Source: an uncultured Faecalicoccus sp.
Lineage (GTDB): Bacteria; Bacillota_I; Bacilli_A; Erysipelotrichales; Erysipelotrichaceae
Assembly (NCBI RefSeq): GCF_944325745.1
Contig: NZ_CALVBG010000009.1
Coordinates: 1 to 35,324 of the forward strand
Direction: 5' to 3'
Length of the DNA: 35,324 nt
Below are positions 28,088-31,224 of this stretch, one piece after another; the stretch's first letter is position 1; each line of letters starts with the position of its first letter. The notes beneath the pieces are model-generated. The model saw only the letters and a program-made list of their open reading frames with translations, ran no database searches and was not told where the DNA came from. Both the position numbers and the translations under genes were made by a program.

Positions 28088-29548
28088 ATGGCTTGTACGA
28101 CAATATTAGTAGGAAAAAACGCAACCTATGATGGTTCCTGCATGATTGCCAGGAACGATGACTCTGCGGCAGGCTCTTATACGGCCAAAAAATGCGTCGT
28201 GGTGCATCCGCAAGAACAACCGAAAAAATATGAAAGTGTGATCTCGCATGCGATCGTCGATCTTCCCGAAAACCCGATGCGCTATACCGCGGTTCCCAAT
28301 GCGGTGGAAGGAGAAGGAATCTGGGCAGCCTGCGGTGTCAATGAAGCCGGCGTCGGCATGAGTGCCACGGAAACGATCACGTCCAATCCTCGGGTCTTAG
28401 GGGCTGATCCCCTGGTGGCTTATGATCCGCAAACGCAGACGCCGGGCGGAATCGGAGAAGAAGATTTTGTGGTCCTGGTCTTGCCTTATATCCGCAGTGC
28501 TAGAGAAGGTGTGCTTCGTTTAGGATCTCTGCTGGAGAAATACGGGACGTATGAAATGAACGGGATCGCTTTTTCGGATGGGGATGAGATCTGGTGGATG
28601 GAAACGATCGGGGGCCATCATTGGATTGCCCGCAAGGTCCCTGATGATGTTTATGTGGCGATGCCGAATCAGTTTGGCATCGATACTTTTGATCTGGAAG
28701 ATGCCTTAGGCAAGCAAGAAAATTATTGCTGCTCAAAAGATTTGAAAGATTTTATCGATCGTTTTCATTTGAATCTGTCTTTCGATTCTGAGTTTGACCC
28801 ACGGGCTGCATTTGGTTCCCACGATGATGCGGATCATGTGTACAATACACCTAGAGCCTGGTATATTGAGAAAGTTTTGAATCCGCATACCAAAAAGTGG
28901 GAAGGAGAAGGAGCAGACTATACGCCGGAATCTGATGATCTTCCCTGGTGCATGTCTCCGGAGAAAAAGATCACGGTCGAAGATGTAAAATATGTTCTTT
29001 CTTCCACTTTCCAGGGAACGCCTTATGACCCTTATAAAGGATATGGCGATCGCTCTCAGGCAGGGATGTATCGTTCGATCGGGGTCAACCGCACAAGCTT
29101 TTTAGGTCTGATCCAACATCGGCCAGACAAAGAGGTCTTGGAATGGATCGCGTTTGCGTCCAACGCATTCAACGTGATGCTTCCTTTCTATCCGCAAGTC
29201 TCTCAAATGCCGGCCTATGTAGCGAATACGACGGCAGAAGTGACGACAGAAAACTTTTATTGGACCAGCCGCATGATCGCTGCCATGGCGGATGCCAGTT
29301 ATAAACAGTCGCACAATCTGATTGAGCGCTATCAGAACAAGGTGGCGGCCAAAGCGCATGAGATCGTTTATAAAACCGATGAAAAACTCAAAGAAATCAC
29401 CGATCCATCCCAACGTCAAGCCATTTGTGAAGCAGCCAACGAAGAGATCTGTGCCATGGCCAGAGAATGTGCGCAAGATACATTGGGCAAGGTCTTGTTT
29501 GCGTTGACTGAGCAGATGAAAAATGCTTATGCCCGCAGTGACGCCTAG
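28088..29548 (+). CDS. C69-family dipeptidase
   Basis: The 486-aa Ntn-hydrolase resembles lactobacillar PepD dipeptidases. The N-terminal MACTTILVGKNATYDGS places the nucleophile at Cys3 after removal of the first residues. IARNDDS, GVNEAGVGMSATETI and EDFVVLVLPYIRSAREGV follow as in the family. There is no signal peptide, so it probably acts on peptides in the cytoplasm. AAATGGAGG precedes the ATG. It ends the GH25-MBL-C69 unit, 17 nt after the previous gene; cleavage of imported muropeptide-derived dipeptides is a possible but unproven link. Confidence 0.9.
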   Translation: MACTTILVGKNATYDGSCMIARNDDSAAGSYTAKKCVVVHPQEQPKKYESVISHAIVDLPENPMRYTAVPNAVEGEGIWAACGVNEAGVGMSATETITSNPRVLGADPLVAYDPQTQTPGGIGEEDFVVLVLPYIRSAREGVLRLGSLLEKYGTYEMNGIAFSDGDEIWWMETIGGHHWIARKVPDDVYVAMPNQFGIDTFDLEDALGKQENYCCSKDLKDFIDRFHLNLSFDSEFDPRAAFGSHDDADHVYNTPRAWYIEKVLNPHTKKWEGEGADYTPESDDLPWCMSPEKKITVEDVKYVLSSTFQGTPYDPYKGYGDRSQAGMYRSIGVNRTSFLGLIQHRPDKEVLEWIAFASNAFNVMLPFYPQVSQMPAYVANTTAEVTTENFYWTSRMIAAMADASYKQSHNLIERYQNKVAAKAHEIVYKTDEKLKEITDPSQRQAICEAANEEICAMARECAQDTLGKVLFALTEQMKNAYARSDA

Positions 29549-29551
29549 ACG

Positions 29552-29580
29552 TTGATGTTTCTTTTTTATCGTGCTATAGT
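29552..29580 (+). promoter_or_regulatory. Promoter of the ABC-F leader
   Basis: TTGATG at 29552-29557, a 17-nt spacer and TATAGT at 29575-29580 place the transcript start near 29587. That gives a leader of about 170 nt before the ABC-F start codon. Confidence 0.7.
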
Positions 29581-29595
29581 GGACTTGGTGATAAG

Positions 29596-29631
29596 ATGAA
29601 GATGCTCAAACAAAGAGGGACAAAAGAATAG
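29596..29631 (+). CDS. Candidate leader peptide MKMLKQRGTKE
   Basis: An 11-codon frame lies in the 5' leader of the ABC-F gene, with only a weak GGTGATAAG ribosome site. Codons 4-7 contain the 5' arm (CTCAAACAAA, 29605-29614) of a perfect 10-bp complement to 29668-29677. A ribosome stalled here would therefore change leader folding. Leader peptides of this kind control several ABC-F resistance genes in Gram-positives. Translation is not proven. Confidence 0.45.
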   Translation: MKMLKQRGTKE

Positions 29632-29677
29632 GGTTTGTGAATAACAGTTCTGCGCTTTTTTGTGTGTTTTGTTTGAG
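29605..29677 (+). promoter_or_regulatory. Long-range pairing in the ABC-F leader
   Basis: CTCAAACAAA (29605-29614) is perfectly complementary to TTTGTTTGAG (29668-29677). GTTTG at 29633-29637 can compete for part of the 5' arm. A T-run at 29655-29661 lies in the loop. This looks like a switchable structure ahead of the terminator. Confidence 0.5.
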
Positions 29678-29713
29678 ACGTTGATGCATTAAAAATGAAA
29701 AATAGAGAAATGA

Positions 29714-29742
29714 CCGGTACTGTTTGTGCCGGCTTTTTTTTT
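29714..29742 (+). terminator. Attenuator terminator before the ABC-F gene
   Basis: CCGGTAC / GTGCCGG forms a 7-bp stem (one G-U pair) with a TGTTT loop. A C and nine T residues follow, ending four bases before the GGTGGAGGTGA ribosome site. It lies between promoter and gene, so it must be bypassed for expression. Confidence 0.8.
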
Positions 29743-29760
29743 ATGGGTGGAGGTGATTTT

Positions 29761-31224
29761 ATGGCTAGGATTCAAGTGGAAGATCTCAGTTTTTCTTATG
29801 ATGGAAGCGAACCCATCTTTGATCATGTCAATTTTTCGATCGATACCCATTGGAAACTGGGATTTGTGGGCCGAAACGGGCGAGGAAAGACGACGTTTTT
29901 AAATTTACTGATGGGGAATCTGGAATATCAAGGAAAGATCTTGTCTTCGGTTCCCTTTGATTATTTTCCTTTTTCGATCCCGGATCCGACCCAGTGGATA
30001 TCGCAGATCGTATCGCAGTTTGCTCCGATGATCGAAGACTGGGAGATCTTGCGGGAATTTTCCTATCTGGAATTGGACCCGATGATCTTGGAGCGTTCGT
30101 TTGACGGCTTATCGCAAGGGGAAAAGACAAAAGTGATGTTGGCGATCTTGTTTGTTCGTCCGGGCAATTTCTTGTTGATCGACGAACCGACCAATCATTT
30201 AGATCGGCATGCGCGCAAGGCCTTGAGTGACCATCTGAGAAGAAAACAAGGCTTTATCTTAGTGTCACATGATCGCGAGGTTCTGGACGGCTGTGTCGAT
30301 CATATCCTGGCTATCAATCGTCATTCGATCGAAGTCCAAAGCGGGAACTATTCCACTTGGTTTTCGGCATTTGAACAGAAACAAGAGCGTGAAAAAGGTG
30401 AAAATGAACGCCTGCGAAAAGAACTTCGCCGCTTGCAGGAATCGGCTTATCGAACGGCCGGCTGGTCCGATCGTATCGAGGCTTCCAAAATAGGGGCGGC
30501 TGATAAGGGATTTGTCGGGCATCGCTCTGCCAAAATGATGCAGCGGTCAAAAAATATCGCGCGAAGAAAAGAAGAGGCGATGAGGCAAAAAAAGGGATTG
30601 TTGAAAGATGTCGAAACAACGGAACCTTTGACTTTTCAATGTCTGATTCATCCTTCAAAAACGCTGATTCACGCCCAAGATCTTACGGTTTTTTATGATC
30701 AGGATCCGCTCTTTCTTCCGGTTTCCTGGGATCTGCATGCCCACGACCGGCTGTTTTTGGAAGGCGGCAACGGAAGCGGAAAAAGTTCACTGATCCAGGC
30801 AATTCGTCAGGAAGGAATCAAAACTTCCGGCTCGTTAGAAAGGGCAAGCCATCTGAAGATTTCTTATGTCAGTCAAGATCCTTCTTGTCTGCGGGGGTCT
30901 TTAAAAGCGTATGCCGCCCAATATGATATCGATCTCAGTTTATTCCTGAGCATTCTTTCAAAAATGGGAATCTTGCGAAATCAATTTGATCAAGATCTAG
31001 AATCTTATTCTGATGGACAAAAAAAGAAGGTCATGTTGGCGCGCAGTCTATGTGAATCGGCCCATCTGTATATTTGGGATGAACCGCTCAACTTCCTGGA
31101 TATTTACAGCCGGATCCAACTGGAAGAAGCAATCCTGGCTTGTCAACCGACCATGATCTTGGTGGAGCACGATGCCTTCTTTCAAAAAAAGATCGCCACG
31201 AAAGCGATCGTATTAGAAAAATAA
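29761..31224 (+). CDS. ABC-F ribosome-protection ATPase, Lsa/Vga-like
   Basis: The 487-aa protein has two ATPase domains and no membrane helices. Domain 1 has GRNGRGKTT, LSQGEKTKVMLA and LLIDEPTNHLD. Domain 2 has GGNGSGKSS, SDGQKKKVMLA and the divergent WDEPLNFLD. The linker contains YRTAGWSDRIEASKIGA, KGFVGHRSAKMMQRSK and IARRKEEA, which is characteristic of Lsa-type proteins. Those bind the ribosomal E site and dislodge lincosamides, streptogramin A and pleuromutilins. Actual resistance depends on the linker tip and cannot be predicted here. The start is at ATG 29761 with GGAGGTGA; an in-frame ATG at 29695 lies before the terminator. The attenuated leader supports a drug-inducible role. Confidence 0.88.
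   Translation: MARIQVEDLSFSYDGSEPIFDHVNFSIDTHWKLGFVGRNGRGKTTFLNLLMGNLEYQGKILSSVPFDYFPFSIPDPTQWISQIVSQFAPMIEDWEILREFSYLELDPMILERSFDGLSQGEKTKVMLAILFVRPGNFLLIDEPTNHLDRHARKALSDHLRRKQGFILVSHDREVLDGCVDHILAINRHSIEVQSGNYSTWFSAFEQKQEREKGENERLRKELRRLQESAYRTAGWSDRIEASKIGAADKGFVGHRSAKMMQRSKNIARRKEEAMRQKKGLLKDVETTEPLTFQCLIHPSKTLIHAQDLTVFYDQDPLFLPVSWDLHAHDRLFLEGGNGSGKSSLIQAIRQEGIKTSGSLERASHLKISYVSQDPSCLRGSLKAYAAQYDIDLSLFLSILSKMGILRNQFDQDLESYSDGQKKKVMLARSLCESAHLYIWDEPLNFLDIYSRIQLEEAILACQPTMILVEHDAFFQKKIATKAIVLEK

Follow-up and report, generated by a model that had tools for sequence, protein, structure and literature searches.

Ribosome-mediated attenuation is an established mode of control for several genes encoding ABC-F proteins, including vmlR (PMC9226507), cplR (PMC10201436), msrD (PMC10314930), and the ARE5 genes (PMC12421871), with VmlR and CplR proven to work in this way (PMC9226507, PMC10201436). 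Stalling of the ribosome at the start codon, during initiation, is the action of pleuromutilin, lincosamide, and streptogramin A drugs (PMC10201436, PMC9226507, PMC12421871), and the published consensus sequences of the corresponding upstream open reading frames (uORFs) comprise MAGN for LsaA, MIN for VmlR, MK[L/Q] for VmlR2, and MR[I/M] for CplR (PMC10201436). The stretch of DNA analyzed here, 35,324 nucleotides long and hereafter called the window, is contig 9 of the 1.4-Mb draft genome of an uncultured Faecalicoccus sp., and contains a leader in front of a gene for an Lsa-like ABC-F protein. An earlier reading of the sequence alone had proposed an antibiotic-responsive attenuator at this site, noting that such control is known for some ABC-F genes, and that the peptide and layout are not known from any of these, in agreement with the published consensuses. 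Judged on the sequences compared here, in which the arm pair covaries and the parts are conserved, a ribosome-mediated attenuator does appear to be the best fit. We consider the leader to be a transcription attenuator of this kind, which senses start-codon stalling by lincosamide, pleuromutilin, or streptogramin A drugs, with a probability of roughly 0.83.

The translated ABC-F gene displays intact nucleotide-binding motifs (LLIDEPTNHLD and LYIWDEPLNFLD) and scores 431 bits against the NCBIfam profile for ribosomal protection-like ABC-F proteins (NF000355), above the cut-off of 380. The best family, matched over the full length, is ABCF_Lsa_all (NF000167), with 642.8 bits, a score below the cut-off of 750, and for this reason the protein is named Lsa-like. 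Its best solved relative is Lsa(A) (PDB code, 7nhk; E 6e-123), and its nearest named relative is the protein from Faecalicoccus acidiformans, with 83% identity. Protection of the ribosome by this protein is therefore named here as its probable function, with a resistance spectrum that presumably follows from its Lsa-like character.

The leader comprises (i) a promoter, (ii) a short uORF with its own Shine-Dalgarno (SD) site, (iii) a long-range hairpin, and (iv) an intrinsic terminator (Table 1). The sequence-only reading had named a promoter belonging to the leader, an 11-codon peptide, a perfect 10-bp long-range pair whose 5' arm lies within the peptide codons, and a terminator with nine Ts just before the ribosome site, and each of these parts was found again at its place. 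The spacing between GGTGAT and ATG is equal for the uORF and the ABC-F gene, and transcription probably starts at about 29587-29592. Only 18 nt separate the last T of the terminator, which ends before the SD site of the ABC-F gene, from the ABC-F start, and expression therefore requires passing the terminator. An alternative ABC-F start at the in-frame ATG at 29695, reached by a frame that stays open backwards through the terminator, was rejected, as this ATG precedes the terminator and finds no counterpart in the other species; the openness of the frame is probably due to chance.

Table 1. Positions of the leader elements and flanking genes in the window
Feature	Positions	Strand	Evidence
C69 dipeptidase gene, upstream of the leader	28088-29548		profile match
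Promoter: -35 TTGATG (29552-29557), 17-nt spacer, extended -10 TGCTATAGT (TG-C-TATAGT; TATAGT 29575-29580)	29552-29580	+	pattern scan; extended -10 conserved
uORF Shine-Dalgarno site GGTGAT	29587-29592	+	invariant in four species
uORF MKMLKQRGTKE, 11 codons and stop (ATG 29596 to TAG 29631), presumed stalling sensor	29596-29631	+	frame intact in all four species
Arm 1 of the anti-antiterminator (AAT) hairpin, CTCAAACAAA, uORF nt +10 to +19, codons 4-7	29605-29614	+	covarying 10-bp helix
Candidate antiterminator 5' arm AACAGTTCTG (AACAGT 29643-29648), within the AAT loop	29643-29652	+	predicted partner of the terminator with the ribosome on the uORF
Arm 2 of the AAT hairpin, TTTGTTTGAG	29668-29677	+	fully complementary to arm 1; compensatory changes in L014 and L056
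Intrinsic terminator: 7-bp stem CCGGTAC/GTGCCGG (29714-29732), TGTTT loop, nine Ts (29734-29742)	29714-29742	+	scan, fold, position in four species
Candidate antiterminator 3' arm ACTGTT, inside the terminator 5' arm and loop	29719-29724	+	
ABC-F gene Shine-Dalgarno site GGAGGTGAT	about 29749-29757	+	sequence
Lsa-like ABC-F ribosomal protection protein gene, 487 aa, ATG 29761	29761-31224	+	NCBIfam profiles; nearest structure

Within the window, neither the promoter pattern (4 found vs 5.2 expected in shuffles) nor terminator-like sites (4 vs 3.3 in shuffles) rise above chance, and the scan places a single terminator-like site, at 29714-29742, in the region between the dipeptidase and ABC-F genes. 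The fold of the leader is stronger than that of its shuffles (z -4.3; 0/200 as good), and 45 of 3000 shuffled leaders (1.5%) contain a perfect pair of at least 10 bp. Strong evidence for the reality of the leader is provided by its conservation.

The comparison set comprises four Faecalicoccus species (the window, L013, L014 from F. pleomorphus, and L056), two of which are close relatives, and all four genomes carry the ABC-F gene. Their leaders have in common an extended -10 element, TGNTATANT, directly 5' of the uORF SD site, followed by GGTGATA and ATGAA. The arrangement GGTGAT-3 nt-ATG is kept in the four species, so that the uORF appears translatable, and the encoded peptides MKMLKQRGTKE, MKMFKQRGAKE, MKMIRQEDTLR, and MKLLRQIVNIEYFRIQ preserve the frame, with conservation limited to the first six codons, MK[M/L][L/F/I][K/R]Q. 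A macrolide or another elongation inhibitor might instead arrest the nascent chain within MKMLKQRGTKE, at a specific sequence motif and not at the start codon, given that K5-Q6-R7 forms a +X+ macrolide/ketolide motif in the uORFs of the window and L013, and that ketolide stalling at Arg/Lys-X-Arg/Lys is established (PMC8298421). Nevertheless, L014 (R-Q-E) and L056 (R-Q-I) no longer carry the motif, which is hence not a conserved feature of the peptide, and Lsa-type proteins counter lincosamide, streptogramin A, and pleuromutilin drugs, which stall at initiation (PMC10201436), making arrest within the peptide improbable.

The two arms of the long-range hairpin read CTCAAACAAA/TTTGTTTGAG, TTCAAACAAA/TTTGTTTGAG, ATCAGAC/GTCTGAT, and GCTTCGACAAA/TTTGTCGGAGC in the four species. 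MAFFT placed the loop and arm 2 wrongly when given long stretches, and the pairs were therefore counted in a four-species alignment trimmed at arm 2, where 97.3% of the cells are paired and 3 of the 10 pairs display double-sided changes. Both the pairing and the covariation score are equaled in 2 of 500 shuffles, and sliding the partner by one column lowers the pairing to 44-58%. The covariation of these four sequences, modest in number and clear in register, is the check in relatives that the sequence-only reading had recommended. The terminator occupies the same place in all four species, with diverged stems (CCGGTAC, CGGTACTG, AAGCACTTTC) and an invariant TACTGT.

The gene preceding the leader is a C69 dipeptidase in the window, whereas a different, membrane-protein-like gene takes its place in F. 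pleomorphus, and therefore the leader belongs to the ABC-F gene. In line with this, a covariance model of the leader finds one strong match per Faecalicoccus genome, always at the ABC-F gene (E 1e-10 to 1e-15), the other matches among 266 genomes of the family being weak (E 0.0016 or worse). The two best matches outside Faecalicoccus (L087 and L088) fall within or next to unrelated coding genes, for which reason they were discarded as chance. The pattern GGTGATAAGATGAA...TG, searched across the family, matches in three genomes besides Faecalicoccus, and the leader finds no match in phage records. A terminator that only ends dipeptidase transcripts, with the ABC-F gene expressed by read-through or from another promoter and the uORF and arm pair incidental, would fit the lack of any other terminator-like site in the intergenic region; yet the unit is kept in F. 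pleomorphus despite the different upstream gene, the arm pair covaries, and the gap between terminator and start is too small for a promoter, so that this explanation is very unlikely.

According to the proposed start-codon-stalling mechanism, transcription would begin near 29587 and, when the drug is absent, uORF codons 4-7 (arm 1) would pair with arm 2, locking AACAGT in the loop; the terminator at 29714-29742 would then form and the transcript would stop before the ABC-F SD site. A lincosamide, pleuromutilin, or streptogramin A would arrest the ribosome on the uORF start codon or immediately past it, where its footprint (to about +16) would cover most of arm 1 (+10 to +19) and block the hairpin, while the freed loop segment would pair with ACTGTT of the terminator 5' arm and loop, enabling read-through by the polymerase. 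The helix that a stalled ribosome would have to disrupt is present, its covarying arm 1 occupying nt +10 to +19 of the uORF.

The predicted exchange of partners was followed in leaders folded either free or with a ribosome footprint masking the uORF start, and truncated at the terminator loop, a choice that favors seeing an antiterminator and was adopted because full-length masked folds always gave the terminator. Without the ribosome, arm 1 and arm 2 form the AAT hairpin in 4/4 Faecalicoccus leaders, and with the masked ribosome the loop segment pairs with the 5' side and loop of the terminator, again in 4/4 leaders. The loop segments (AACAGT, AACAGT, AACAG-A-ACCG, and TACAGTAA) face the terminator segments ACTGTT, ACTGTT, CGGT-A-CTGTT, and TTACTGTA, respectively, and in L056 the loop element lies inside the last uORF codons. 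ACAG is present in all four hairpin loops, a result equaled by 0.75% of shuffled sets. The energy of the helix between loop and terminator is that of shuffled loops in the window (p 0.47), with p values of 0.02, 0.08, and 0.21 in the three relatives, and the joint p is 0.01 or 0.11, according to which close relative is used. In full-length folds the terminator always wins, even with the masked ribosome, and the switch would therefore have to be kinetic. The AACAGT loop segment is thus best described as a predicted element, likely but not established as the antiterminator arm; neither an antiterminator nor the wider set of leaders described below had been named in the sequence-only reading.

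The same full-length folds pair the 5' end with the gene start region in the window and L013 and, as cplR and vmlR are known to combine both levels of control, the switch might act mainly on translation, exposing or hiding the ABC-F SD site with termination as a secondary effect; this is most improbable, however, since the pairing is absent from the L014 and L056 folds and the terminator ends upstream of the SD site. A ligand-sensing riboswitch, T-box, or protein-binding leader, for which a structured leader with a terminator would be expected as well, is the least credible explanation, as no Rfam family reaches the gathering score in the window leader, a conserved uORF with its SD site sits inside the helix, and the terminator stems differ while complementarity is kept. 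Over the window and 17 related loci, Rfam at gathering score returned no leader family, but only a T-box in L080 and two tRNAs; the T-box leader (L080:2994-3195) is located just downstream of the ABC-F gene.

Beyond Faecalicoccus, about 40 related, Lsa-like ABC-F genes display a strong SD site, a tiny uORF, an arm at about +10 to +17, and a terminator (L015, L016, L018, L020, L024-L039, L041, L043, L045, L048, L049, L057-L059, and L065-L081). The hosts belong to the Bacillota and comprise Erysipelotrichia, Oscillospiraceae (Ruminococcus), Syntrophomonadaceae, and other Clostridia, and the uORFs, which mostly end at codon 6-7, include MRKISC, MYKFSC, MKMFSC, MKTVSY, MINFSCK, MILACK, MR, and others. 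Arm 2 is found at +40 to +90, the complement lying 25-70 nt beyond arm 1, and in the loci tested no Rfam 15 family at gathering score corresponds to these short-uORF leaders. In 38 of 44 leaders, the four from Faecalicoccus included, the +10 to +17 helix is better than that of shuffles (p<=0.05), and between four and six types of standard pair occur at each paired position, counts that lean towards pairing because the register is the best duplex per sequence. Three leaders from Syntrophomonadaceae (L020, L034, and L049) carry a two-codon uORF, MR (ATG CGC stop), and still present the arm at about +10, where it lies beyond their coding part; it is therefore the RNA arm, and not the peptide, that is held at this distance, an indication that the ribosome stalls at the start codon. 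In L065, L067, L068, and L070, all from one genus, a further stretch of about 90 nt separates the predicted terminator from the ABC-F start.

In a maximum-likelihood tree of 49 ABC-F proteins, the four Faecalicoccus sequences form one clade (100/99), which nests in a clade of 15 members (98/98); the remaining leaders of that clade belong to the MYNFSC, MINFSCK, MKTVSY, and MILACK types. With the proteins nested in this way, the Faecalicoccus leader is, as far as these sequences indicate, most simply a derived form of the wider family. Its uORF spans 11-16 codons vs about 6 in the relatives. The predicted antiterminator 5' arm coincides with arm 2 in 25 of 40 relatives, lies just downstream of arm 2 in 8, and scores as 'loop' in 7, several of which have only 2-7 pairs or poor terminators; in the four Faecalicoccus leaders it is in the hairpin loop. 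Since the antiterminator arm is arm 2 in most relatives and a loop segment in Faecalicoccus, the latter looks rewired. We tentatively suggest, as a possibility that is more doubtful than not, that the hairpin and antiterminator roles, carried by one arm in the relatives, were split in Faecalicoccus, where the antiterminator arm would have been relocated to the hairpin loop, with the uORF lengthened toward it. A ribosome finishing the longer uORF would then reach the edge of the antiterminator arm, or cover the arm in L056, such that drug-free translation would actively favor termination, the arm becoming free only upon an early stall. This functional role of the longer uORF is speculation.

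With the leader described here, an apparently undescribed type is added to those known for Lsa-like resistance genes of gut bacteria, and the comparison separates the fixed parts of the switch, namely the start codon and the arm at +10, from the free ones, which comprise the sequence and length of the peptide, the terminator stem, and the position of the antiterminator arm. Retention of the arm alongside uORFs of two codons supports start-codon stalling as the event that is sensed, and renders the peptide-specificity question posed for VmlR MIN (PMC10201436) testable. Lsa-like genes behind such leaders may stay silent in susceptibility screens until induced.

The switch is of a known kind, while its Faecalicoccus version and the wider leader family appear undescribed in the literature searched. 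That literature, which mostly lacked subscription papers, held nothing relevant that combined ABC-F, attenuation, and Erysipelotrichaceae, or ABCF, uORF, and Ruminococcus, and its relevant papers made no mention of the peptides of these leaders. Compared with described systems, the vmlR leader of Bacillus subtilis (PMC9226507) resembles the Faecalicoccus leader in having a uORF inside an anti-antiterminator hairpin, a terminator before the ABC-F gene, and stalling of the start-codon type, but its uORF is MIN (3 codons), its protein belongs to the ARE2 subfamily, no shared sequence was noted, and it also employs pause hairpins and an SD-sequestering hairpin (PMC9226507). The cplR leader of Clostridioides difficile (PMC10201436), of about 210 nt, likewise places its uORF in a 5' hairpin and a terminator by the start codon; nevertheless, the uORF is MR[I/M], the protein is of the ARE1 type, and the stem of the cplR terminator hides the SD site, whereas the Faecalicoccus terminator ends before it. 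Enterococcus lsa(A) encodes the closest characterized protein subfamily (ARE3; PMC10201436) and, compared by uORF consensus, carries MAGN instead of MK[M/L][L/F/I][K/R]Q. Finally, the plasmid lsa leaders of Staphylococcus (lsa(B)) and Priestia (L099 and L100) share with the window a leader uORF and proteins that are about 53% identical, but the uORF of the plasmid leaders (L099:450-600 and L100:450-600) is longer and unrelated and, as judged by eye, a TTTGTAT/ATACAAAGGAGG hairpin covers the SD site and no terminator with a T-run is seen, a layout that looks like translational attenuation.
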